A DNA stretch of 26,827 bases, taken from positions 1-26,827 of the IMG/VR virus record IMGVR_UViG_3300045996_002735, one strand, 5' to 3'. Positions 1,203-24,305 of the stretch are shown in pieces; within the stretch, counting starts at the first letter, position 1, and each line of letters begins with the position of its first letter. The stretch is from a virus. The notes beneath the pieces are model-generated. The model saw nothing but the letters and a program-made list of their open reading frames with translations. It was not told the origin of the DNA and did no database searches. The translations under genes and the position numbers were made by a program.

Positions 1203-4200
1203 ATGTTGTTTCCCGCATTGAAGGCTGGATTCTTGAAGCGCGCGGTGGTGGGTCCGCCCCCGACTCCATCCGTGTGGATTGAAACCAATCGAAATGCGCT
1301 CTTTGATTTTTCAGACTCCAATAAGCGGACGCTATCAAGTTCGGCATTTTTCCGTGTAGAAGATGCTGGCGGTAACAACTACCATTTAGAGTCTGATAGC
1401 GGCGATACAGCGCATGCATCGTGGCCGAGTCTGGCGACTTTTGGCGCGCGTCAAGCCGGGTCGTTTGATGGCACTGATGGCATGTGGGGTGTGGATGAAA
1501 CATCTACCCCTAGAAATTTTACTGTTCTTATGTCAGGCAGCAAGCGCGCTCCGCGCACGCTGTATTTTCTGTTGCGCAATGCCGGGACAAATCCGACAGA
1601 ACGTAAAGTACTGATGGCTTATTATAGCTGGTCTAATCTGAATGGACTTTTGCAGTTTGGAATTAGCACGAACGGTAGACCTTACATCGTAAGCCGTTCT
1701 TTAGGTGGCGCGGAAGTCTTCTTAGAGGCACAAAACGGGACATTTACGAAAAACGGTGACAATCTTTTCGGCTATACGATCAAAGCAGATGGCACGGTTT
1801 CGTTTTCCCTCAATGGAACGATGCTGACCGTTCCGACCGGGACAGTACACAACGAAAATTTGCCAAGTGGTGGTGATTGGAACGTCTCCTTTGGTCATCA
1901 GCCATGGGCTGGCGGCATTGGTGGGGGTTCTTTTGTTGGTAGTATGTATATTGCTGCACTTTATGGCGCGGCGCACGCGTCTGCCGAACATACGCAGACA
2001 TGGAATGCAGCACAAACCTATCTTGGCACGTCTCCCGGTCCCGGCTTGCCGACAGAGACGATAACTCTAAATCCGACTAACCCCGGAACTTATACGGTGG
2101 AGACTGCCGGAACAACTGTGCAGTGGACAACGAACGTTGTTACGTCCGGTCTCTCCCAATTTCAATATGCGGTTTTTACCGCTTCGAATGTTGCTCGCGG
2201 TGGATGGGTCACGCAGAATATAGCCGCTGGTGCGACGACAACCGGAATTACTGTGACGTTTAGCGCTACAGGTGATTATGTTATTGTGCGCAAAGTGAAT
2301 GATGATACGCTACGTGCGCTGAGCAGTGGTGTCACAATCAACGTTCAAACTACCGGAAGCGGTGTGTCGCCTATTCCATCTGGTTGGGTAATAGATGTAA
2401 CCGACCATTTTGACGGGACTTCGCTGGACTCTTCTAAGTGGAAGCATGCCGGTTTCGGTGGTCCGGCTCACCGCGACGGCAACGGGAATCCGGCGGCAGA
2501 GTGGGATAATGGTGCCGGAATTAGCGTTCACGATAGCGTTGCTGAATTGCAAGTCTATCGTGGTGGTCCGTATGGCTGGATGGTGACAGGATGGTTGCAG
2601 GGGATCACGACTGACCCAAGCGCATCCTATGGTTATCATCCGGGGTACGGAGAATTCCATATCCGCATCCGTGCCCGTTGGTCGCATGCGTTTGCACCCG
2701 GCATCGGTGCGTATATGCTCATGTGGCCTGCCAATCAATCAATAGTACCGCATAGTGAATTTGATATCATGGAAATGCCTTCCGGTGATACCGGCGGCAT
2801 GAAGACGCGTCATGCGACTGCGATTCATTGGCTGTGGGAATCCGCTCAACATGATTCTTCGTCGGTTGATAAATATAACATTGATCTAACTCAATATCAT
2901 GTTTGGGATTTTCGTCGCACGTTTTCCACGGTAAATGGACAGCAAGTTGCGACATTCAATGTATGGATTGATGGCGTTGAATTGTCGGATAACGGAAATC
3001 GTCCATGGCGGTGGGATAATAACCCGGATACGCTTGACCGAGTGGTTTTTGGCCCGGCAACATTTGTCGGCAGTGAGTCCGGATGGTATGGATTCCCTAA
3101 CTCTAATTCTCCCTCTCCGGCAAGTCTTTACATTGATTATGTGACGATTTGGGTTCCGGGTTCTGGCACGCCTCCACCTCCGCAACGCAGTATGAGCTTT
3201 TCCCCTAGCAGTCCCGGCACCATTCAAGAACAGGTCGCGGGGGCTGGTGTGCAATGGACAACAACAATCACGAGTACGGGCTTAACAAGCGTGTCGTGGG
3301 TGGTTGTTGAAAACGGAACATGGGCATGGCGCGGCAGCCCGACAGCCGTTGCTACGAATGGCAGTGTTCAGATTACCGCTACGTTGTTGAAGAGTGGTGA
3401 TTTTATCAAGGTCATGGATACTAGCGACTTTAATTTTCAGGTTGATAGCGGACAGGTTACGATTCTGCCTGCGGCGGGTGGTGGTGGCGGTGGTACTCCG
3501 GGAGCAAATCCCGCACCCGCCGTGCATGTCGTTGGGCGCGGTCAATCCAATATGCTGATCATGGGTGAATCCGGTTGGGTGGATGGCGCGTGGTGGATGG
3601 TTTCTGATCTTGTGCGAGTGTTGACCGGTATTCCGGAGGTTATTAGCCATCTAGACCGGTGGGAGGATGACGGATCGTATACCGTTGCGAGTGGCACGGA
3701 TTTGTATACTTTTCGGAGTCCGGTTGATTATAGTCCATGGTTTGAAGCACGCGGCTTTAATCAAAGCGATCCGTCCTCTTGGCCGTTGGTCGCGCATGGG
3801 CTTGGTTTCCGTCAGTATGTTTTAAACAACATCGCATCCGATGGACGCGCTAACACGCCGGTTCTATTGGTGGATGGACACACAGAATATCCGCAGCAAA
3901 AGCCAGCAAATGAACTACCGGTTTGGCACGCTGCGCATACCAATTTCTTGGATCGCTACCGTTCATGGACCGGTCGCAGTGTAGCGCAAAGCCCGATCTT
4001 TCTTGCCTATATTCCATATAGGTGGACGCAAGGCGATGCGATTGATACCATACGGGCTAGTCACTTTGACCAAATTGCCAATGCCTCACGCAATACGCAT
4101 CGGGCGGAGGGTGGATGCAGCGATACCACAGGCGACGGTAGCCATTGGGACGGGCCGGGCAATGCGGTGGCAGCCCGGCGAATGGGGTTTGCCTTGTCGC

Positions 4201-4661
4201 GATGGCTGCATGATAATGGATATGCGCACAATGATTTGTCGTGGCTCCCAAAGACAGGACCGCGCATCAACACAGTGAATCGAACGTCAAACGGCAATCG
4301 TTTGCGCGTCAATGTGACGCATGACAAGGGTAGTAGCTTGGTTATGCCGGGGGCATTTTCAGCCGGTAATAATTTTTCTGTGTGGGATACCACAGGCTTT
4401 ACGGCTGCAACTGGTGCTTCAATTGTTGATAACAATAACATTGATATAACATTCATTAGAAATATAACAGGAACCAATTCAGAGGTTTGGTTTAGTTATG
4501 GAATGACTACGGATCATCGGGGTTTGGACTCGATGATTACAGACAATTGGCATACAGGGTCAGTAAGCAAACCGGCAGGGGCATGGAGCAGTAACGCACA
4601 ATTTAATGCGGCTAAGTTCCCTTTGAATACGACTCTTCGCTACATGAACCTTGTCGGGTGA
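1203..4661 (+). CDS. Large tail-associated glycan hydrolase: LamG-like, GH16 glycosidase and SGNH esterase domains
   Basis: A 1152-residue multidomain protein. Residues about 30-275 look like a LamG/concanavalin-like beta-sandwich. Two Ig-like domains of similar sequence (about 285-385 and 660-750; both contain NPxxPGT or SPSSPGT followed by V-Q-W-T-T) flank a GH16-type catalytic domain (about 395-650). That domain carries the GH16 signature E519-F-D521-I-M-E524, with E519 the expected nucleophile and E524 the acid/base. After a Gly-rich linker comes an SGNH-hydrolase-like domain: block I is G780-Q-S782-N with Ser782 the expected nucleophile, and block V is D978-G-S-H981. The protein may cut beta-glucan or galactan-type polysaccharide and deacylate it; the substrate cannot be read from sequence. 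The next gene encodes a further glycosidase. Confidence 0.85.
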   Translation: MLFPALKAGFLKRAVVGPPPTPSVWIETNRNALFDFSDSNKRTLSSSAFFRVEDAGGNNYHLESDSGDTAHASWPSLATFGARQAGSFDGTDGMWGVDETSTPRNFTVLMSGSKRAPRTLYFLLRNAGTNPTERKVLMAYYSWSNLNGLLQFGISTNGRPYIVSRSLGGAEVFLEAQNGTFTKNGDNLFGYTIKADGTVSFSLNGTMLTVPTGTVHNENLPSGGDWNVSFGHQPWAGGIGGGSFVGSMYIAALYGAAHASAEHTQTWNAAQTYLGTSPGPGLPTETITLNPTNPGTYTVETAGTTVQWTTNVVTSGLSQFQYAVFTASNVARGGWVTQNIAAGATTTGITVTFSATGDYVIVRKVNDDTLRALSSGVTINVQTTGSGVSPIPSGWVIDVTDHFDGTSLDSSKWKHAGFGGPAHRDGNGNPAAEWDNGAGISVHDSVAELQVYRGGPYGWMVTGWLQGITTDPSASYGYHPGYGEFHIRIRARWSHAFAPGIGAYMLMWPANQSIVPHSEFDIMEMPSGDTGGMKTRHATAIHWLWESAQHDSSSVDKYNIDLTQYHVWDFRRTFSTVNGQQVATFNVWIDGVELSDNGNRPWRWDNNPDTLDRVVFGPATFVGSESGWYGFPNSNSPSPASLYIDYVTIWVPGSGTPPPPQRSMSFSPSSPGTIQEQVAGAGVQWTTTITSTGLTSVSWVVVENGTWAWRGSPTAVATNGSVQITATLLKSGDFIKVMDTSDFNFQVDSGQVTILPAAGGGGGGTPGANPAPAVHVVGRGQSNMLIMGESGWVDGAWWMVSDLVRVLTGIPEVISHLDRWEDDGSYTVASGTDLYTFRSPVDYSPWFEARGFNQSDPSSWPLVAHGLGFRQYVLNNIASDGRANTPVLLVDGHTEYPQQKPANELPVWHAAHTNFLDRYRSWTGRSVAQSPIFLAYIPYRWTQGDAIDTIRASHFDQIANASRNTHRAEGGCSDTTGDGSHWDGPGNAVAARRMGFALSRWLHDNGYAHNDLSWLPKTGPRINTVNRTSNGNRLRVNVTHDKGSSLVMPGAFSAGNNFSVWDTTGFTAATGASIVDNNNIDITFIRNITGTNSEVWFSYGMTTDHRGLDSMITDNWHTGSVSKPAGAWSSNAQFNAAKFPLNTTLRYMNLVG

Positions 4662-6265: not shown

Positions 6266-6667
6266 ATGGCAAACAGCATTAACCCGAATTGGAAGGCTGC
6301 TATCATGCAGGCTTCCGCCAATTCGGCGCTTACTGGAAATATTAAGGTGGCGCTTTTGGCAGCGTCGCACGGCTATCTTGACTCGAAAACGTTCATTTCG
6401 GAACTTACCACTGCAAATATTGTGATTCGCAGCGGAAATCTTGCTGGCAAGACATTTACGGGCCGAACGTTTGATGCTGATGATATCAGTATTGCAAACG
6501 TGACGGGTTCGCAGGTGGTTGCTTTGCTTATTTACGTTGATACTGGTTCGGATGCTACTTCCCGCATGGTGGCATTTTTCGACACTGGCGTTGGTGGTTT
6601 GCCGGTCACACCAAACGGTGGTGCCATTAACCTTACGTGGGATGCGGCGGGTATCTTCGATCTTTAA
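6266..6667 (+). CDS. Small virion-type protein, 133 aa, function unknown
   Basis: It opens with MANSINPNWKAAIMQASANS and continues with alternating hydrophobic and Thr/Ser residues (NIKVALLAASHGY, SQVVALLIYVDT, LTWDAAGIFDL). This resembles short phage proteins encoded among fibre genes that are built as a single beta-sandwich ending in W-D-x-x-G-I-F-x-L. No active site is visible. A strong ribosome site (AGGGGAG, about 8 bases before ATG) supports the start. It is the last gene before a perfect hairpin at 6699-6724. It is probably a head decoration, tail or fibre component, and the assignment is weak. Confidence 0.65.
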   Translation: MANSINPNWKAAIMQASANSALTGNIKVALLAASHGYLDSKTFISELTTANIVIRSGNLAGKTFTGRTFDADDISIANVTGSQVVALLIYVDTGSDATSRMVAFFDTGVGGLPVTPNGGAINLTWDAAGIFDL

Positions 6668-6764: not shown

Positions 6765-6781
6765 GAGGGAGACGAAAAATA
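6765..6781 (+). promoter_or_regulatory. Shine-Dalgarno site placed for an ATA initiation codon
   Basis: GAGGGAG at 6765-6771 is followed by 7 bases and then ATA at 6779-6781. The spacing is ideal for initiation at this ATA. The in-frame TGA at 6764-6766 leaves only four codons between stop and ATA, and no ATG, GTG or TTG occurs in frame until GTG at 6962. Confidence 0.65.
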
Positions 6782-9673
6782 GCTACCCGGTTATACCTTA
6801 ACAGTACGGCAACATCCGGTATTGCGGGATACCGGGATGCTGACACGTCCCAACAAGGGGCGGATGAAGATTTTAGTAATGACTTCGGCTCAGGCTCGGA
6901 AGTTTTAATTGAGGATTTTGTCTCTGGTACGCTTGCCGCTGGTTTCACGTTATCCGGGTCAGTGTCATTTCGGATTTCTGGTGGTAATCCGAACAACGCT
7001 GATTGGAGATTTCGAGCAAAGGTCTACAAACGGGATTCCGGTGGTACAGAAACACTAGTTGTTACTGCCACTGATGATGCTCGGCTCGCGGTGTCTTGGT
7101 CCAATCACGATTTTAGTGCCACGCCGGGAGCCGGTGTGTCGTTTTCTAGTGGTGATCGAATCGTTGTCAAAGTTTATTTGGCTCCGGATACCGGCGGCAG
7201 TGTAGTAGGGGATTGGCTTGGCGTCTCTTTTGATTCAACCATCCCGTGGTATGTTGATTTCACTGAAAATTTTACGATTGCCGGGCCTCCATCATATCGG
7301 GCTGGCAGTGCGTCATTAACGGGTGTTGCCTCCGGAACAACGGTTACGCCTTCTCTACCTGTCGGTTGGCAGGCAGACGATATTGCATTGGCGTTGGTGA
7401 CTGTTGATGACGTTGATTCGAACATCACAGCTAGTGCCGGTTGGAACCTGATCGGAAATCAGACAGGTTCGGTATTTGCAGGCTCTTTGTTTTGGCGACG
7501 TTTGCAGGTTGGTGATGGTAATCCGACTTTCACCGCACCCTTGCGAAGTGGCACAGGCGAAAATCTATCTGCCTCAATAGCGGTTTTTTCGGGATGTGTC
7601 ACGAACGCGACTCCATACGAAGACGCGCGTTCAAATTCTGGCACCGGTACGCCCATGACGGGCAACGCTGCCGGTATTACAACAACCGGTGCAAATCGGC
7701 TGGCGGTGTCGTTTGCCGGTCGCGGTGATGATGATGCGATTTCAACAACGCCTTCAACCAGTTGGACTCACCGCTTTGCCCTTACGAGTACGGCAGGAAA
7801 TGATGCCGGGCATGCACTAGAGACGCGCGTTGTATCGTCTGCGACAACGATTTCGACAACTTCTCGTTCTGCCGCTGCGACTGATCCGTTTGTTGTCTTT
7901 ACACTCGCACTTTTGCCGGTTCCAAGTTCTGGCGACCAAGCCCTTACGCATGATAATATTGTTGATAGTGATACGCTGCGTGTCCCAACGGCTGCGGCAT
8001 CTTATACACTCACACTAACGAAGGAGACGGATGGCGATACGCCGACGGTTCCGACCGTTGCGGCGGGGGCGTATGGGCTGACGCTCACGAAGCTTGTTGA
8101 TGGCGATACGCTGACGGTTCCGACCGTGGTTCCGGGGAGCGTTACAGCTACCGCTCCGCGCATAGATGATGCAGACACGCCGCGTGTTCCGACCGCTGCG
8201 GCTGTTTATGCACTTACACCAGCCAAGGAAGTAGACGCTGACACGCTTTCAGTGCCTACGGTGTCGGCTTCTAAGACGTTGACGCATGCCAAGCATACGG
8301 ATTCTGATTTTGCTTATCCTCCGGTCGCATCTCTGGCACCCTATGTGCTTTCCTTCACAAAATATGATGATAGCGACTCGTTAAAGTCGCAAACGGTAGA
8401 AACTGCCAGCGTCATAGCTCCGGCGCATTATGTTGAAGATGAGTCGTTTTATTCCCCAACCGTAGTTCCGGGTGCCACGACTCTTACGGTAGCTCTGTAT
8501 GGTGACGGCGATAATCTGTTTGCGCCGAATTTTGAAGATACACAGTCGCTATTGCTTGATTCATATTCAGATGGTGATACGCTTCCGACTCCTACCGTAA
8601 TTCCCGGAGCGATTAGCGTTGCTCCGGCTTCGCTGAGTGATGGCGATACGCTGACGGTTCCGACCGTCGCGCCGGGTGCGGCGGTTGTCGCTCCCGTCAA
8701 GCTGACGGATAGCGATACGGTCCGTGGTCCGTCTAGCACGCGATTCATATCACATGCCAAGTTTGTTGATGGCGATACGGTGCGTGCTCCGTCCGTTTCG
8801 CAAATACTTGCGATTATAGCAACGATTCTCTCTGACTCGGATACATTTGGTACTCCCTATATTTACAAAGAGCCGGGCAATTACGCTAATAGTAGCGGAC
8901 CAGCAAATTCCGGCTTTGCGAATATACACAACGAAGATTTGGATGTTTTCTTTTCATCCGTGCATGATGACGGGGATACGGTTCGCGTACCCGCTGTTAC
9001 TCTCGATGCTGGCGACTCGCTTATTATCCTAAAGCTATCGGATGACGACACGCCGCGCGTACCAACAGTTAATTCAGTTGCCTCTATTTCTCCGCCGCTG
9101 CACGTTGATTCCGATTCCACTAAGAACCCGATTGCTTCGGCATCGGCTGTATTTGCACTGATAAAACACGTTGATGCGGACACCATCAGGGTTCCGTCTG
9201 TCACTGCGCATAAAACCCTTAGTCATGTAAAAGCAGTTGATATTGATACGCTCAAAATTCCAACGGTTTTGCCTGGAACGCGTATTTTTAGTATCCCGAA
9301 GCTTGTAGACGTGGATTCGGTCCCTGCGGTGTTCATTGCGCAGGGTAGTCCGCTTTTGCGCGCTCCGCACATCATATCAACGACTGTGCTGCGCGCACCC
9401 TATGTGCCAGCGCCAATTCCGCCAGGGCAGAACATCGCCCCGGCGCTATATCGTGTGAATTCAACGCTTCGGCCTCCGGGAGCCACACTCGGCCCGGCTC
9501 CCAAGTTTTTATTGCATACGAAGTATGTTGCCGATGAGCAATTACACGCACCAACCTTGTCTGAATTCGAATGGCGTTTCATCACGGCAACTGTTGCTCC
9601 GTACACCATGTTTACGGTAACAGAAGCCGCCGCACGCGTGCTGACCGTAGGGGAGGCAGATGGCAGTCAGTGA
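6779..9673 (+). CDS. Tail fibre protein with about 20 D-x-D-T-L-x-V-P repeats; probable ATA start
   Basis: From ATA 6779 the frame encodes 964 residues. The N-terminus would be M-A-T-R-L-Y-L-N-S-T-A, which matches the common 'MATRLYL' opening of phage fibre and head proteins. Residues about 1-170 and 175-385 look like beta-sandwich domains; the second has PVGWQADDIALALVTVDD and a later W-x-L-I-G, as in receptor-binding adhesin-like virion domains. Residues about 390-925 are tandem 22-23-residue repeats with consensus K-x-x-D-x-D-T-L-x-V-P-T-V followed by a short beta strand. The first canonical in-frame start, GTG 6962, would remove 61 residues that clearly look coding. The stop overlaps the next gene by 14 bases. 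A repeat shaft with Asp-rich, possibly Ca-binding turns is inferred. Confidence 0.8.
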   Translation: MATRLYLNSTATSGIAGYRDADTSQQGADEDFSNDFGSGSEVLIEDFVSGTLAAGFTLSGSVSFRISGGNPNNADWRFRAKVYKRDSGGTETLVVTATDDARLAVSWSNHDFSATPGAGVSFSSGDRIVVKVYLAPDTGGSVVGDWLGVSFDSTIPWYVDFTENFTIAGPPSYRAGSASLTGVASGTTVTPSLPVGWQADDIALALVTVDDVDSNITASAGWNLIGNQTGSVFAGSLFWRRLQVGDGNPTFTAPLRSGTGENLSASIAVFSGCVTNATPYEDARSNSGTGTPMTGNAAGITTTGANRLAVSFAGRGDDDAISTTPSTSWTHRFALTSTAGNDAGHALETRVVSSATTISTTSRSAAATDPFVVFTLALLPVPSSGDQALTHDNIVDSDTLRVPTAAASYTLTLTKETDGDTPTVPTVAAGAYGLTLTKLVDGDTLTVPTVVPGSVTATAPRIDDADTPRVPTAAAVYALTPAKEVDADTLSVPTVSASKTLTHAKHTDSDFAYPPVASLAPYVLSFTKYDDSDSLKSQTVETASVIAPAHYVEDESFYSPTVVPGATTLTVALYGDGDNLFAPNFEDTQSLLLDSYSDGDTLPTPTVIPGAISVAPASLSDGDTLTVPTVAPGAAVVAPVKLTDSDTVRGPSSTRFISHAKFVDGDTVRAPSVSQILAIIATILSDSDTFGTPYIYKEPGNYANSSGPANSGFANIHNEDLDVFFSSVHDDGDTVRVPAVTLDAGDSLIILKLSDDDTPRVPTVNSVASISPPLHVDSDSTKNPIASASAVFALIKHVDADTIRVPSVTAHKTLSHVKAVDIDTLKIPTVLPGTRIFSIPKLVDVDSVPAVFIAQGSPLLRAPHIISTTVLRAPYVPAPIPPGQNIAPALYRVNSTLRPPGATLGPAPKFLLHTKYVADEQLHAPTLSEFEWRFITATVAPYTMFTVTEAAARVLTVGEADGSQ
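7950..9560 (+). repeat. Array of 22-23-residue Asp-rich protein repeats
   Basis: About 20 recognisable units, with a few degenerate ones near the end, carry D-S/G/A-D-T-L-R/T-V-P-T-V. Some units are also nearly identical in DNA: 8099-8127 and 8639-8667 share 29 bases exactly, and 8030-8058 differs by one. This shows duplication and shuffling of units within the gene. One unit near 8820-8950 is followed by a non-repeat insertion of about 30 residues. Confidence 0.9.
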
Positions 9674-14029: not shown

Positions 14030-14692
14030 ATGGCACGTATTTCGTCCCAAGGCACGGTTGCCTTGCTGGAAATTGCACCGCGCAATGCCGGAGTAGCGGC
14101 AACCGCTGCAACGGCTGCCGCTCCGGCTGTGATTACGGTCGGCTCTGGAAACATGACCGATTTCACGGCGGGTGTTTGGGTTTACGTTGAGGCAGTCGGA
14201 TGGGATTCGGTGCATGGCAAGGTTTTCAAGGTGAAGAACCCGAGTGGCGCGGCTGGCACGTTTGAACTTGCGGGTTCAGACACTACCGGGGAAACGAATT
14301 GGCCTGCGAGTGCGAAAGTTTACGCGCTTGATTTTTCGGAAGTGTGTTTTAACCAGATTTCCCGTGATTCTCCGGCTTCCGCTACTGTGGACGTGACGAC
14401 GCTTTGCGATGAGGCGCGCGTTACGGTGTCGGGCATGCCCGCGCCGGGTACGATTACGTTTGGCGGATTCTATGACTCCGTTGATGAAGGCTACCAAGAA
14501 TTGCGTAATGCATATGAAGGTGGCGAAGATCGGTGGTTTGTTATCAATATGCGCGATGGTAGCGTTATTGCAATGCTGATTAATATCAACAGCCTTGGAG
14601 AATCTCTCGGCGTTGATCAGGGCGTTTCGTTTAGCAGCGGCGCGAATGTCTCCGGCCGTCCCATTTATTACACTGCGGCGGCGCTGGCATAA
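14030..14692 (+). CDS. tail tube: Major tail tube protein (gpV-like)
   Basis: 220 residues. It begins M-A-R-I-S-S-Q-G-T-V, a common opening of lambda-type tail tube subunits. The later pattern T-I-T-F-G-G-F-Y-D, then E-D-R-W-F-V-I, M-R-D-G-S-V-I, S-L-G-E-S-L-G-V-D-Q-G-V-S-F matches phage tail tube proteins, which polymerise in hexameric rings around the tape measure. A GTG-, gap-free junction follows: its stop overlaps the next gene's ATG by one base. AAAGGAG lies about 10 bases before the start. Placement just before the two overlapping chaperone frames and the tape measure is canonical. Confidence 0.85.
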   Translation: MARISSQGTVALLEIAPRNAGVAATAATAAAPAVITVGSGNMTDFTAGVWVYVEAVGWDSVHGKVFKVKNPSGAAGTFELAGSDTTGETNWPASAKVYALDFSEVCFNQISRDSPASATVDVTTLCDEARVTVSGMPAPGTITFGGFYDSVDEGYQELRNAYEGGEDRWFVINMRDGSVIAMLININSLGESLGVDQGVSFSSGANVSGRPIYYTAAALA

Positions 14693-15099
14693 TGAGCACA
14701 TATCGCAAAACGCGCAAGGTGCGTGTGAAGGCTTGGAGCGATGATCCAATCACGCTCCAAGAATTGAGTCTTGGCGATATCGGGGAAATGTCAGGGAAGC
14801 AGTTTGAACGCGTAGATTTTGCAATGGAATTGGTTGGAAGGTCGTTGCTAGATGAAGAAGGGCGAGCGGTAGGGGCGAATTGGCTACGGGAAAATGTGGG
14901 TGCCAGCAAGCTTCCCGGTCTGATGGAATTGGTTGATCACTGTCAGGATTTGAATGGCTTTAATAAGTCAGAAGAGCAAAAGAAGGAAGAACAGGAAAAC
15001 CCTCTCGGACGAGCGCCGGTTAAGAATGCGGCTCGCTCTGGCGCTCGGAAAAACGGTGGGGGAGTTGGAGAACCTGTTGACGCCGCGCGAGTGGAATGA
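14692..15099 (+). CDS. Tail assembly chaperone, gpG-like (upstream frame)
   Basis: 135 residues, between the tail tube and tape measure genes, exactly where lambda encodes gpG. The body (about 1-85) contains L-Q-E-L-S-L-G-D-I-G-E-M and a helical middle, followed by a lysine/glutamate-rich linker (KSEEQKKEEQEN) and a low-complexity, basic end after residue 100. The linker region overlaps the next reading frame, as in chaperone pairs joined by programmed frameshifting. The end after about residue 105 does not look conserved, as expected if part of translation leaves this frame. It would bind tape measure during tube assembly. Confidence 0.75.
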   Translation: MSTYRKTRKVRVKAWSDDPITLQELSLGDIGEMSGKQFERVDFAMELVGRSLLDEEGRAVGANWLRENVGASKLPGLMELVDHCQDLNGFNKSEEQKKEEQENPLGRAPVKNAARSGARKNGGGVGEPVDAARVE

Positions 15100-15316
15100 A
15101 TGGCTGCATTTTATGAAAACGGAGTTCATTGGGTATCAGCGGTTTGATTATGGTTTCGCGTCCATTACCGCAATGCTCTATAATATTAATAGGCCGCTGC
15201 ATAGTCCATTGAAAAATCCGGTTGATTTCATGCCGTTTCAAAAGAAAGGCGATGAAGAGCCAGAATCGACTCCGTTGGAATTTGCTAAAGCATTCGGCGC
15301 GGAGGTTATTGGATAA
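14954..15316 (+). CDS. Tail assembly chaperone, gpT-like (downstream frame, probably expressed by frameshift)
   Basis: The frame is open from just after TGA 14951-14953. The body has L-R-M-R-L-A-L-A-L-G-K-T-V-G-E-L-E-N-L-L-T-P-R-E-W-N-E-W, the hallmark of gpT/DUF4035-type tail chaperone C-terminal domains. It lies in the +1 frame relative to the gpG-like gene. Fusion would require +1 or -2 slippage before about 15025. A separate ATG at 14954 with AGGA at 14945-14948 could also start it independently. In other phages the fusion chaperone recruits tape measure to tail tube subunits. Confidence 0.72.
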   Translation: MALISQKSKRRKNRKTLSDERRLRMRLALALGKTVGELENLLTPREWNEWLHFMKTEFIGYQRFDYGFASITAMLYNINRPLHSPLKNPVDFMPFQKKGDEEPESTPLEFAKAFGAEVIG

Positions 15317-17965: not shown

Positions 17966-18346
17966 ATGAGCGGCAGCATAATTTTACACTGGCCTATATC
18001 GTTACCACAATGCCCAACGTCTTGGATGGAACGTCCAATTTCCACGACGCTGCGGAGCGAAGTTCAGGTTGGAGTTGCTAAAACACGTAGACGTTATACG
18101 CGCACGCGCGTAACCGCGCAGTCACGATTCTTGTTGGTGCGTGGACCGTCTAACAAGCTCTCTAGCCCCGGCTATGTTTCTTTCATTCAATTTTATCAAG
18201 CCGATTGTTTAGGCGGAGCGCGTCCATTTTATTTCACGCACCCTTTCTCTAAAATCCTGAAAGCGTGGCGTTGGACGGAAGAGCCTCAACTTTCAGATTA
18301 TGAAGGGAAGTTTATTCAGGTAACTTGCGCATGGGAAGAAATGTGA
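17966..18346 (+). CDS. Minor tail protein, gpM-like
   Basis: 126 residues, beginning directly after the tape measure stop. The order gpM-, gpL-, gpK-, gpI/J-like after the tape measure repeats that of lambda. The sequence has W-P-I-S-L-P-Q-C-P near the start, I-Q-F-Y-Q-A-D at about 78 and T-H-P-F-S-K, with an ending (EEPQLSDYEGKFIQVTCAWEEM) that reads like the closing strand of distal tail proteins. Tyr- and Trp-rich strands suggest a beta-rich tip protein that docks on the end of the tube. The family call rests on position plus general fold, as no single motif is decisive. Confidence 0.75.
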   Translation: MSGSIILHWPISLPQCPTSWMERPISTTLRSEVQVGVAKTRRRYTRTRVTAQSRFLLVRGPSNKLSSPGYVSFIQFYQADCLGGARPFYFTHPFSKILKAWRWTEEPQLSDYEGKFIQVTCAWEEM

Positions 18347-18826: not shown

Positions 18827-19299
18827 ACGAATTTAATGTTGTTCCATATTTGCGTATTCCGTGGAAGTCGCACGGTCGAGATTGGAACGGTTGTGACTGT
18901 TGGGGGCTGGTTAGATTAGTAATGAAAACAGAACTTGGAATCGAATTACCTAGTTTTGCAGATGAATATAACGATGCATCGGATGTACGTGCAACAGCCG
19001 CAGCTTATAAATTACATACCAGTGAATTAGCACAGCGAATCCGGTTGGAAGATGTGGAGACGTTTGACGCGCTGCTTATGAAAACCGAAACCGAGCCTGT
19101 ACATATAGCCCTCTGTTCTGGCATAGGGTATGGTTGGCAACGGACGATGTTGCACATGCGGCCTGAGTTTGGGCCTGCGAATGTGCCTATCAAGTCGGTG
19201 TCAACGGAGTATTTCATAACGGGAGCGTATAGGTGGACGGCACTGCGCAGCTTCCGGGACCGGTCGGGCAAGATGACGAACCCGTTGCCAATGCGCTAA
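18823..19299 (+). CDS. Tail tip NlpC/P60 family protein (gpK-like peptidoglycan peptidase)
   Basis: 158 residues starting at GTG 18823, with AGGAA at 18811-18815 giving 7-base spacing. The NlpC/P60 core shows G-R-D-W-N-G-C-D-C26-W-G-L-V-R with Cys26 in the catalytic position and H94 in E-P-V-H-I-A-L as the partner histidine. Lambda gpK also carries an N-terminal metalloprotease-like domain; here only the NlpC part is present. It probably cuts peptide cross-links as DNA enters, or acts in tip assembly. It overlaps the next gene by 67 bases, which is unusually long. Confidence 0.85.
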   Translation: MNEFNVVPYLRIPWKSHGRDWNGCDCWGLVRLVMKTELGIELPSFADEYNDASDVRATAAAYKLHTSELAQRIRLEDVETFDALLMKTETEPVHIALCSGIGYGWQRTMLHMRPEFGPANVPIKSVSTEYFITGAYRWTALRSFRDRSGKMTNPLPMR

Positions 19300-22200
19300 C
19301 CGTTCAAACACGCCCCCGGCTGCTCAGTAGTGAGGGGGCGGAGACATTCGCGATAGGCGAAGGTCTCACCATCACTGAAATTTTGGAAAAGGCGCGTTGG
19401 CAGTCGGCGTTTTGGCCCTATACGGCTGTGAGCGTCAATGGGCACGTGGTGCCGCGCGAGCGTTGGCACCGAGTGCGCCCGCGCGCCGGAAGCACGCTAG
19501 TTATAGCTGTGGTGCCGCAAGGGGGCGGGCGGGGCAAGCAGTTGCTTGCTATCGTCGCGTCAATTGCAATCATGGCGTTTGCATGGTGGGCCGGTACAGC
19601 ACTTGCTGGTTCATTGTTCGGTGCGGCTGCCGGTTCGTGGCAAGCCAACATGCTGATTGCCGGTATTGCGCTAGTCGGCAATCTCGGCCTGTCGGCGTTG
19701 GTTCGTCCAAAAGTGCCGCGCGCGGATTTGGGGGCGGCTGGTGCTCTTGGCATCAGTGCAAGCGCCTCACAGTCTGAACCGACATATTACACGATTGGTG
19801 GTCAACGGAACCAAGCCAAGCCTTATGCGGCCATGCCGCGCTTGCTTGGTTCGGCACGGATTGCGCCGAATCTGGTTGCTGAGCCATATGTTTTATCGAT
19901 CGGGCGGGATAGTTATTTATTTGCAGTTTACGATTTTGGTTATGGTCCGTTGGATATTTCTGATATCCGAGTTGGTGACACGCCTATTGGTTATCTTCGT
20001 GAAGTTGACATTAGAATACACCACTTTTTTGAAGCTGGCGATGCGTTGCAGCTTTACAACGGAGATGTGCAAACCACTTCGGTTGGAGCTACCCTTAGTC
20101 GGTCATATCAATTTATTCAAGCTGACACCAATGCGCAGGGTGTTACGCTTGAATTTGTATTTCCCGGCGGGTTGTTTACGATAGACCGTCGTTCTCAACC
20201 AGCGTCGCATGAAGTATGGATTGATATCATTTGGCGCTATGTGGGTGACACTACGTGGAATACGCTGGATTCTGTGCCTGCTAAATGGATTAGTTGGGAC
20301 AGTAACGCCTCAGCGTCTAATTCTGTCTCAGTAAGTGGCGGCACGGTACGGCAAAGGTTTGAAGCTTGGGCGTCCCCGATTCATTCGTTTAGATTCGATG
20401 CCGCTGGAAATATAACACAAACCTTTGAACCAGATGAACAGGTATGGGTCTACGGTGATCAGAGTATTTCCGCTTGGCTCAAACCCGGTTGGTTCATCGT
20501 GTTTCCCGGTTCACGTGCAGTTAAAATTCTTGAAGTGTTTAATTGGTGGCCTGATGATACAACCGGAAGGCGCGGCACCGATGTAAACGTAATTCGTGCT
20601 CACTTTAGAGTTTACGTGACTAGTCGCGCCGCTGTTGGTATCCCTGACGGTGAGATTAATGTCGTTGGCATAGTCGAACCCTTCGATGGGCCTCCGGGGC
20701 AATTGCAGGTTCGCGCGGCAACACGTCAAGCTTTGACGGTTCAGCTATGGATGGAAGGTTTTCCCGGTAATCGGACAGTTGAATTTGCCTATCGTCGCAC
20801 GAGTGATGAAGCTACGATTACAGAGTTGGTGGACAAAGTTTCACTTAGTTCGATATCTTCCCGCTATTATCGCCAGCCATTTTTCCCGTCTCAGGGGCAT
20901 TCGATTCTGGAAGTTCGAGTCAAGGCGAATGACCAACTTTCCGGACCGCTTGATACGCTTACCGCATATTGCACGAGTTGGCACACAGAACCGCATTCGG
21001 TTGGTTTCGGCGGCTGGCAATGGAAGCCGAGTCGAAACCCGGCGGCACATTATTTGGAAGTGCTGCGCGGAACAGCGAACCCGCGCCCGGTGCCGGATTC
21101 TCTGATTGACTTTCCGCAATTCGAACGTTGGGCAGACGTGTGTTCCTCCACATCCCCACAGGGGGATGTGTATTATATGTGTGATCTGTTCATTGAAGGG
21201 CGCGTCACTATTGGTGAATTGCTTACTGATATAGCGCGGTGCGGTCGGGCTATTCCTACCATTCGTGATGGAAAATACTCTATTATTATGGAGGATGAGG
21301 CACGCGTTCCAGTACAGATGTTTACGGTTAAAAACACAAAAAGCATGCAGTTTGAGCGCATCTGGCGGAGACAGCCGCATGCGCTGCGCATGCGTTTCCT
21401 TAGCGAGCAATCCAACTTGCAGGAAGAGTTGACCGTTTACGATGACGGTTACAACGGGTGGAACGCGACGGAATTTGAAACCGTCGAAGAATCGCCCGGC
21501 ATGACTCGGTGGTGGCAAGTTTGGCGTTCTGGTCGGCGCATGCTTGCTGAGGGTAAATTGCGCCGTGAGAATTGGACAATTAGCACTGATATTGAAGGGT
21601 TAATTTGCCAGCGGGGCGATTTGGTGTTGGTGGCTAGCGACTCGTTGCGTGCCGGTGGTGAGGCAATGCGTATTGCTAGCGTGGAGGGGGAAGATATTTG
21701 GCTTGATGAATCTATTGATTCCCTGAATGGTAATGACACACTGCGCGTGCGGTTGTCAGATGGAGCATATTTATTAGTCGCGGTGGATTTGTCGCCAACT
21801 CGCCCCGGTGCGGTTCGTGTGACTCCGGGTAACGCACAAAATCTAAAGCCGGGTATGCTTTGCGTTCTCGGTGTTACAACAAACACCACGATTCCATTGA
21901 TCGTCACCAGAGTCACTCCCGGCCCGGATTTTACGGCAACCATTGAAGCTGTTGAGGAAGCTTCCGGGATTAGGCAAGCAGAATACACGGTAATTCCAGA
22001 TTATGCGCCACCAACATGGGTGCCATCTCGGCGGGTTCTTGTAGACTCACCGCGCAGCTTCGTAGTGACTCCACACTATACGTATGAAAATCGTTATCCG
22101 TTTATAACTCTTCGCTTCACGTGGATTGCTCCGCCGCGCGTTACGTTTCAGCGTTATATTTTGTATGAAATTGTAGCTGGAAATTGGACTCCTATAGCTG

Positions 22201-24305
22201 ACACAACCATGGCTAGTTATGAGTTAACGCTTTCCCGGTTGACTGTTCCACGGGAAGGCGTTGAGCGGACGTTTGCTGTGCTTGGCGTCACGCCAACCGG
22301 TTCTGTGTCGAACCCGGTAATAATAAACATTTTGCTAACGCGTGACAATGAACCACCGGGACCGGTGGCGTCGTTTTCGGCAAATATCCTGTCTGAAACA
22401 ATCTTGTTGATGTGGGAACCTCCGCTGAATGCTATTGACATTGAGCGGTATGAGCTACGGTTTGCAAGTCGGGATACTATCGTTGATTTTCTTGGTAACA
22501 ACATCAACGATTGGAATAATATGACGTTGCTAGCGGATTCGATTCCGTTCCACGCAACGCAGTTCACCACAAGTGCGCGCACTGGTCTGTATGCGATCAG
22601 TGCAGTTGATACGTCTGGTAATTATGGTCCTCCGTCCTTTACGAGAACTTATATTGAAGATTTGCCGAATCTAGATGTGGTGATTGTTCTTGCGGCTGGC
22701 GGTGGTCCGCTTGACGTGGAAGAGCAATTTACCACTCTTTCCAAAATCAGTGATTCGGATACGTTGCGTGTTCCAAGTCTTTCGCCTTCCGCAATTACGT
22801 TGTCGATTAGCAAATTCACTGACTTCGATTTCGCCAAGCCTCCCAATGCGCTTCTTTCTGGTCTAGTGAGTCATGCAAAGGTGGTTGATGCGGATTCGTT
22901 GAAGCCGCCTATTGTATCCCGCGTTGCTGCTCCGGGTGCGCTACAGGTCGCGAAAATCATTGATGTGGACACGCTGCGTGTTCATATCGTGCAGCGTGAC
23001 TCGGGAATTGGTGGCAAGATTCTTGTTGAAACTGCTGATGGTTCTCTACTTCAAGAGAGCAACGCACAGCCCGGCTACATTTTGCAGGAAGCCGAAACTT
23101 CCGTCGTTCCAACTTTGCAGACGGTGTTCCCGCAAAAGTTGGTTGACGCTGAAAACATGCGTTCTCCAAATGCCGCCAACATTACGGCTGGTAATTTGGT
23201 GTTTTCCAAATACGTGGATACGGACACGTTGCGCGTTCCAACCGCGTTGCGTGGTCCGGTGAATGTTGGTGCGCCAAGGATCACGAACGCGAACACAGTT
23301 CGGGGGCCGATTGTCACGATTGGCACGGTGGTTCCGGGCGGCTATTACATACTGACGGAAAACGGGCTTGAATGGATCGCGCTTGAAGACGGAAGCGGCC
23401 TGATCTTACAGGAAGGTTCTCCGCCTCAACTGCGGCAGCTTCCCCCGCCATCCTTGAAAGCACAGGCTGAGGCAAGACGGAAAAACGGTCGTCGCATTGC
23501 ACCACGTGCGAATCCCGGTGCCGTTAGGCCAGTCATGCGCCCCGGCCCGTTTCGGGATGTGCCAACGCTTCCCGGTCCCGGCTGGATCGGGGATTTTATC
23601 GGCACCACGCGTCTGTCTGCGGAATTGCGTCTACAGCGCAACACAGATGGTACATACGAACAAGAGGGCTGGTTTTATAGCGCTGTTGAGTTCGAAACTG
23701 TGACTCCACTGCGCGTGCGCATGTCCAGCATGATTGATGCCTATGGGTATGCCGCCGGTCGCACGATGGCGGGTTGGGTGCCACTCGCTAGTGCGGTGCC
23801 GCTTGACGACACGCAACGCGGCCGGGATTGGGATGCGGAGGTGCATGTTCGGGTTCTGCGCGATCCGCCGACTCTTGGCTCAGCATGGTTCACGCCGCTC
23901 GCCAATGCCGCGCCGCTGGCCGGAGATTTAGCCAACCAAACCCAATGGACACGGTTGATCGTGGGGGATTGGGACGCTACGATTGTGCAATGGGCAATCC
24001 GGTTGTGGAGCCGTGAGCCGAACATAACTCCGTCTGTGCGATGGGCTGAGGTTCGGGTTGATGTGGTCGAGCGACGGGAATCCGGGCAAGACGTGGCGAT
24101 TGATGGTGACGGAACGCGCATCCTATTTGAAAACGGGTTTTGGGAGCCACCGGTTTTGTCGCTCACGTTGGCGAACGCTCCGGAGGGAACCAAGATCGTG
24201 CGAGCGGTTGACCGCAACGGATTTGATGTGACGTTGATTAGCAACGGCGTTCCCACTAGCGGAATCATTGATTGGTTCGCAATGGGTTACGGCAAATCTA
24301 GCTAG
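19233..24305 (+). CDS. Central tail tip/host specificity protein: gpI-gpJ fusion with repeat insertion
   Basis: 1690 residues from GTG 19233, supported by GGGAG at 19221-19225, 7 bases upstream. Residues about 25-90 are a ThiS/MoaD-like ubiquitin-fold segment (AVSVNGHVVPRERW, VVPQGGG), followed by two hydrophobic helices (about 105-155), the gpI layout. From about 180 it continues as gpJ: strands of the central hub (YAAMPRLLGSARIAPNLVAE, YLFAVYDFGYGPLDI) to about 850, then fibronectin-type-III-like domains (about 930-1150). Residues 1165-1360 hold seven D-x-D-T-L-R-V-P repeats shared with the 6779-9673 fibre. After a linker rich in Gln/Pro, residues about 1440-1690 form a C-terminal domain. 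It binds receptor and closes the tube. Confidence 0.88.
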   Translation: MDGTAQLPGPVGQDDEPVANALTVQTRPRLLSSEGAETFAIGEGLTITEILEKARWQSAFWPYTAVSVNGHVVPRERWHRVRPRAGSTLVIAVVPQGGGRGKQLLAIVASIAIMAFAWWAGTALAGSLFGAAAGSWQANMLIAGIALVGNLGLSALVRPKVPRADLGAAGALGISASASQSEPTYYTIGGQRNQAKPYAAMPRLLGSARIAPNLVAEPYVLSIGRDSYLFAVYDFGYGPLDISDIRVGDTPIGYLREVDIRIHHFFEAGDALQLYNGDVQTTSVGATLSRSYQFIQADTNAQGVTLEFVFPGGLFTIDRRSQPASHEVWIDIIWRYVGDTTWNTLDSVPAKWISWDSNASASNSVSVSGGTVRQRFEAWASPIHSFRFDAAGNITQTFEPDEQVWVYGDQSISAWLKPGWFIVFPGSRAVKILEVFNWWPDDTTGRRGTDVNVIRAHFRVYVTSRAAVGIPDGEINVVGIVEPFDGPPGQLQVRAATRQALTVQLWMEGFPGNRTVEFAYRRTSDEATITELVDKVSLSSISSRYYRQPFFPSQGHSILEVRVKANDQLSGPLDTLTAYCTSWHTEPHSVGFGGWQWKPSRNPAAHYLEVLRGTANPRPVPDSLIDFPQFERWADVCSSTSPQGDVYYMCDLFIEGRVTIGELLTDIARCGRAIPTIRDGKYSIIMEDEARVPVQMFTVKNTKSMQFERIWRRQPHALRMRFLSEQSNLQEELTVYDDGYNGWNATEFETVEESPGMTRWWQVWRSGRRMLAEGKLRRENWTISTDIEGLICQRGDLVLVASDSLRAGGEAMRIASVEGEDIWLDESIDSLNGNDTLRVRLSDGAYLLVAVDLSPTRPGAVRVTPGNAQNLKPGMLCVLGVTTNTTIPLIVTRVTPGPDFTATIEAVEEASGIRQAEYTVIPDYAPPTWVPSRRVLVDSPRSFVVTPHYTYENRYPFITLRFTWIAPPRVTFQRYILYEIVAGNWTPIADTTMASYELTLSRLTVPREGVERTFAVLGVTPTGSVSNPVIINILLTRDNEPPGPVASFSANILSETILLMWEPPLNAIDIERYELRFASRDTIVDFLGNNINDWNNMTLLADSIPFHATQFTTSARTGLYAISAVDTSGNYGPPSFTRTYIEDLPNLDVVIVLAAGGGPLDVEEQFTTLSKISDSDTLRVPSLSPSAITLSISKFTDFDFAKPPNALLSGLVSHAKVVDADSLKPPIVSRVAAPGALQVAKIIDVDTLRVHIVQRDSGIGGKILVETADGSLLQESNAQPGYILQEAETSVVPTLQTVFPQKLVDAENMRSPNAANITAGNLVFSKYVDTDTLRVPTALRGPVNVGAPRITNANTVRGPIVTIGTVVPGGYYILTENGLEWIALEDGSGLILQEGSPPQLRQLPPPSLKAQAEARRKNGRRIAPRANPGAVRPVMRPGPFRDVPTLPGPGWIGDFIGTTRLSAELRLQRNTDGTYEQEGWFYSAVEFETVTPLRVRMSSMIDAYGYAAGRTMAGWVPLASAVPLDDTQRGRDWDAEVHVRVLRDPPTLGSAWFTPLANAAPLAGDLANQTQWTRLIVGDWDATIVQWAIRLWSREPNITPSVRWAEVRVDVVERRESGQDVAIDGDGTRILFENGFWEPPVLSLTLANAPEGTKIVRAVDRNGFDVTLISNGVPTSGIIDWFAMGYGKSS
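22740..23310 (+). repeat. Block of seven D-x-D-T-L-R-V-P repeats inside the gpJ-like protein
   Basis: Units read K-I-S-D-S-D-T-L-R-V-P, K-F-T-D-F-D-F-A-K-P-P, K-V-V-D-A-D-S-L-K-P-P, K-I-I-D-V-D-T-L-R-V-H, then after a roughly 45-residue break (GKILVETADGSLLQESNA, YILQEAE) K-L-V-D-A-E-N-M-R-S-P, K-Y-V-D-T-D-T-L-R-V-P and R-I-T-N-A-N-T-V-R-G-P. They match the repeat family at 7950-9560 in length and consensus. The protein also repeats an L-x-E-D-G-S-x-L-L/I-L-Q-E motif before and after the block. Confidence 0.88.

Follow-up and report, generated by a model that had tools for sequence, protein, structure and literature searches.

The window analysed here, 26,827 bases long, is an entire virus record. 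It encodes, in order, a collagen-like protein, a large adhesin-like ORF, a phrog_644 protein, a repeat fibre, an endolysin and head-tail connectors, followed by the major tail protein, the tape measure, a phrog_384 protein, a DUF1833 protein, an NlpC/P60 protein, a gpI-gpJ fusion and an S74-type tail fibre. No capsid gene was matched in the window by Phage_capsid (PF05065). The best matches of the window gpJ among annotated phages are in Bradyrhizobium, Rhizobium, Rhodovulum and Rhodobacter phages (rhizobial and rhodobacteral), which suggests that the host is probably alphaproteobacterial. By eye, the large adhesin-like ORF at 1203-4661 shows a GH16-like EFDIMEMPSG motif and an SGNH-esterase-like GQSNM ... 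HWDG pattern; it gave no Pfam match up to E=1 and no PDB relative, and may, on these motifs, encode a polysaccharide-degrading appendage. Two overlapping ORFs at 14692-15316 (phrog_344 and phrog_337) occupy the tail assembly chaperone slot, the second in a different frame, resembling programmed-frameshift G/GT genes.

The repeat fibre ORF (6779..9673, plus strand; 964 aa counted from the ATA at 6779) consists of a non-repeat N-terminal part of ~385 aa, 20 coil units and degenerate C-terminal units. Its frame is open from 6779 through the stop codon at 9671-9673; the codon at 6779-6781 is ATA, lies 7 nt after GGGAG and is followed by ATRLYL, and the first ATG, GTG or TTG in frame is the GTG at 6962. 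The ATA may serve as a rare start, or an ATG may have been lost there by mutation or misread in sequencing. The 20 in-register units (7931..9340, plus strand; aa 385-855) are 22-23 residues long and, for the most part, spaced 22-23 aa; after them, at 9341..9560 (plus strand; end approximate), the translation shows two or three degenerate units, for example NIAPALYRVNSTLRPPGATLG and FLLHTKYVADEQLHAPTLS. The original prediction of about 20 units in this protein is borne out by these counts, with degenerate copies continuing to about 9560, and its consensus, K-x-x-D-x-D-T-L-x-V-P-T-V, is correct. The fibre DNA also holds a 30-nt internal repeat. No Pfam-A or NCBIfam model matches the repeat region at its curated cut-off, and the earlier statement that the unit has no named domain holds for both collections.

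The second unit-bearing protein is the gpI-gpJ fusion (19233..24305, plus strand; 1690 aa), the central tail-tip protein. Its parts are, in order, a gpI-like N-terminus, the TipJ core, an FNIII part, the unit insertion and a C-terminal domain. The TipJ core is matched by phrog_31 at 5.6e-83 and by PF13550 above its cut-off; the score of gpJ against NF040662, 101 bits, is below that model's cut-off of 140. A weak ThiS match in the gpI-like part (TIGR01683, 2e-4, below cut-off) is in line with a beta-grasp fold. The seven units predicted for this protein were recovered as two blocks ~13 kb distant from the fibre array: block A with four units (22719..22994, plus strand; aa 1163-1254, spacing 23, 22 and 25 aa) and block B with three (23112..23318, plus strand; aa 1294-1362, spacing 24 and 23 aa).

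That these units are inserted in gpJ, as had been proposed, is evident from alignment with the gpJs of the rhizobial phages RHph_Y3_1 and ppBdUSDA122-1 (27-28% identity), relative to which the window gpJ has ~300 additional residues containing the units; the two homologues are without a unit block. The insertion borders are uncertain because the homologues are this distant. The last ~120 residues of the window gpJ, its C-terminal domain (23937..24293, plus strand), are homologous to the C-terminus of the gpJ of Rhizobium phage RHph_Y3_1 (i-E 2.9e-7). The array, lying between the FNIII part and this domain, is therefore internal and no terminal extension. The window protein is like the lambda gpJ/TipJ tail-tip proteins in being a gpI-gpJ fusion with a TipJ core, and unlike them in carrying a coil-unit insertion ahead of the C-terminal domain.

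The two arrays consist of one repeat, as the original prediction held. An HMM of the 20 fibre units detected gpJ with 56.6 bits, whereas 1,000 shuffled versions of the gpJ segment gave no score above 8.4, and a tblastn search of the record with its own fibre recovered both gpJ blocks (1e-9 and 2e-7); on these comparisons the units are homologous. The arrays also share a subtype. Fibre and gpJ units have in common K9, D12, D14, [LV]16, R17 and V18, in place of which ~1,000 other units carry L9, N12, N14, F16 and Y17, and the mean gpJ-fibre unit score is 22.4, whereas the runner-up among the collected proteins reaches 17.6. This resemblance bears on whether the units were instead taken separately from one phage pool and made alike by composition and host-surface selection. 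Such independent acquisition or convergence, to which we give only a small share of the probability, would account for arrays without shared DNA or colinearity, but K9, R17 and V18 occur in both arrays and are rare among the ~1,000 other units, and a K-type pattern scan of IMG/VR returned isolated chance matches only, with a K-type array in no other contig. As for exchange by recombination, which the original prediction had offered as one reason for the shared module, the sharing of a subtype fits it; against a recent exchange, the longest DNA stretch common to the two arrays is 11 nt, the same as in codon-shuffled controls, and the order of units shows no significant colinearity (p 0.27-0.62). 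Block transfer between fibre and gpJ is unsupported on both counts, and copying between the arrays is old or never happened.

The unit is not unique to the window phage: a repeat widespread among phages includes it as a divergent subtype rich in Asp and Lys. Scanning IMG/VR with motifs and then iterating profiles collected 98 ORFs with ~1,033 units at 22- or 23-residue spacing (near-duplicate contigs included; 727 distinct unit sequences), with the consensus TLTPALYTNTNTFYAPTVT. Pam2_68, a hypothetical protein in the tail gene region of Pseudanabaena phage Pam2, adds 13 units, and some units are also found in a Microcystis phage. The hydrophobic positions 5, 16 and 21 are retained throughout the family, and the window units agree with it in their 22-23-residue tandem spacing, in L5, F/L16 and V21, and in D/N at 12 and 14. 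The search with a profile of the units that had been proposed as a check yielded relatives, and no Pfam or NCBIfam family for the repeat region: a window-fibre profile scored 349, 313 and 273 bits against the family members L036, L061 and L098 (shuffles at most 9), and in the reverse direction a profile built from the other members only scored 18.1 bits against the window fibre (shuffles at most 6.7). The latter profile gave 1.5 bits against the gpJ array alone, while shuffles reach 5.1; it misses that array, and the family membership of gpJ accordingly rests on the fibre.

Pam2_68, L036, L061 and L098 resemble the window fibre in the tandem unit, the three hydrophobic positions, the D/N-x-D/N-T motif and the linkage to phrog_644 described below. 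The window differs from these otherwise unnamed TFYxPTV repeat proteins in having K9, L/V16, R17 and Asp (there L9, F16, Y17 and Asn), and in having a second array, in gpJ. Several family members gave weak PHROGs matches to phrog_8501 ('minor tail protein', 133 aa) and to a few unknown families; the window's own proteins gave no match to phrog_8501 up to E=1. Neither tblastn with the fibre and gpJ arrays in phage records nor single-protein IMG/VR scans returned unit-bearing relatives; the motif scans did. A genome scan with an Asp-only pattern gave six matches, all by chance. In the literature, no description of the motif, the repeat or phrog_644 was found.

The phrog_644 gene (6266..6667, plus strand; phrog_644 at 6332-6667) lies directly upstream of the repeat gene. 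Of 38 unit-bearing records, 32 contain it, and of the six without it most are short contigs; none of 38 control contigs contains it, these controls having been taken from scans with other patterns and being of different origin. In every record for which both positions are listed, the gene and the array share a strand, with the gene 1-6 kb upstream. According to PMC13148394 and PMC13243192, PDB 9D93 is the tail of mycobacteriophage Bxb1. In that entry, 'Tail wing arm, gp31' is matched by the window phrog_644 protein at 2.2e-6, by another member of the phrog_644 family at 2.5e-5 and by a five-sequence phrog_644 profile at 3.4e-11. The Bxb1 tail wing comprises a base, an arm (gp31) and a brush (gp33), and it is the homologue of the arm that adjoins the window repeat gene. 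The brush reportedly holds polyproline-II helical bundles (PMC13243192), which are unlike the coils described here. From this neighbour we infer that the repeat fibre probably sits at the tail tip, in agreement with the host-facing location that the original prediction gave it. The alternative is that the repeat protein belongs to the head, as a fibre or decoration, leaving the gpJ copy as the only one at the tail tip. This would suit the position of the gene, which in L167, L166, L106 and the window is flanked by portal/capsid genes and head closure. We think a head fibre unlikely, given the constant linkage to phrog_644, which is homologous to the Bxb1 tail wing arm, and the Pam2 cassette, which comes after the distal tail protein gene.

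Structure prediction for consecutive units, the other check that had been suggested, gave a solenoid-like repeat. With AlphaFold2, seven window units reached pLDDT 65.4 and pTM 0.50, and nine L036 units pLDDT 74.9 and pTM 0.64, with short strands recurring in each ~22-residue coil. Foldseek returned no significant PDB or viral match for the coil models; the closest PDB entries, non-significant, are mostly beta-helices, the top neighbours being the parallel beta-helix tailspikes of P22 and HK620 (E > 1). These tailspikes have no sequence relation to the window unit, whose coils are short and near-identical. On these models we regard the unit, with moderate confidence, as one coil of a beta-solenoid, and the homology of their units suggests that the fibre and gpJ arrays would have one fold.

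The paired Asp residues had been taken as a sign of calcium stabilisation. Asp stands at both 12 and 14 in 13 of 87 relatives; the other 74, in which Asn is the commonest residue at these positions, speak against that view for the repeat as a whole. Calcium is possible in the Asp subtype and is not required by the results. A Ca-stabilised adhesin rod, in which D12 and D14 would bind metal in every coil, draws on the two Asp per unit in both arrays and on the 13 relatives, yet it appears highly improbable: the preference for Asn in relatives better fits a turn-capping role, Lys or Arg stands at position 9, near the Asp pair, in the majority of gpJ units and in roughly half of those in the fibre, and a Pfam search of the fibre up to E=1 returned no RTX, EF-hand or dockerin family. 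The RTX-type GGxGxD nonapeptide is absent from the unit sequence. Across the family, Arg/Lys9 accompanies Asp/Glu11 (170/208 vs 20/809), an association that suggests in-unit salt bridges between positions 9 and 11; in the window units Lys9 is common and position 11 usually holds Val, Ser or Thr.

A second double placement is found in L106, whose synteny is that of the window (repeat fibre, head closure, terminator, major tail protein, tape measure, phrog_384 protein, NlpC/P60, gpI-gpJ). Here the phrog_384 protein, of 206 aa, has three units at its C-terminus; its counterpart in the window (17966..18346, plus strand), after the tape measure gene, has no units, nor has that of L167. The L106 phrog_384 units score highest with the fibre units of their own contig, by a narrow margin (40.7 vs 40.1), and Pro13 is common to both sets (2/3 and 8/11, respectively). 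L106 alone has a second unit-bearing ORF among ~50 other unit-bearing records searched whole, many of which are fragments. At 5788-6783 of L106, an adjacent pair of ORFs follows the tape measure gene; their N-termini are alike by eye, and only the first has units.

Same-subtype units in a fibre and in a tail-tip-region protein of two phages, together with the linkage of the fibre to a tail-wing-arm homologue, may be read as docking: the solenoid of a wing fibre would pack on the gpJ coils (in L106, on the phrog_384 coils) and anchor the fibre to the tail tip, and the contact between fibre and gpJ would keep the subtypes matched by co-evolution. The rarity of a second array among the unit-bearing records implies, however, that the fibre does not as a rule need a partner array to function, and we consider docking distinctly unlikely. 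Still bolder, and very unlikely in our estimate, is the idea that matched coil arrays in the wing fibre and in a tail-tip protein form a heterotypic solenoid-solenoid joint. This would be a new means by which siphophages attach receptor-binding fibres to their tail tips, one that evolved two or more times and with different tip proteins.

The reading that we prefer, and to which we give an even chance of being right, is that the repeat is a phage solenoid spacer, the shaft of a fibre at the tail tip, that was copied into the tail-tip protein. The ~20 coils would form the shaft of an adhesion appendage, encoded in an adsorption cassette beside the tail-wing-arm homologue, and the seven coils of the same subtype, an interrupted array in gpJ, would act as a spacer extending the tip. 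Both arrays would most likely have one intragenomic origin, the coil DNA having been copied between the genes and then having diverged for a long time; the spacer function and the direction and mechanism of copying are what we infer from the arrangement.

A common phage repeat that is undescribed in Pfam and NCBIfam now has a profile-level definition, and its tie to phrog_644, whose Bxb1 homologue has been solved as a tail-tip wing arm, suggests where dozens of hypothetical proteins may be located. The window and L106 are two natural cases of a fibre module inside a core tail-region protein, and offer a way to test how phages assemble their host-binding devices and rearrange them. Between and after the gpJ units, at ~23016-23102 and ~23340-23420, a small motif occurs twice (ILVETADGSLLQE..YILQE and YYILTENGLEWIALEDGSGLILQE), and a unit-bearing ORF of L076 contains YLLTENGDFLITENGQYLVTE, which is similar to it.
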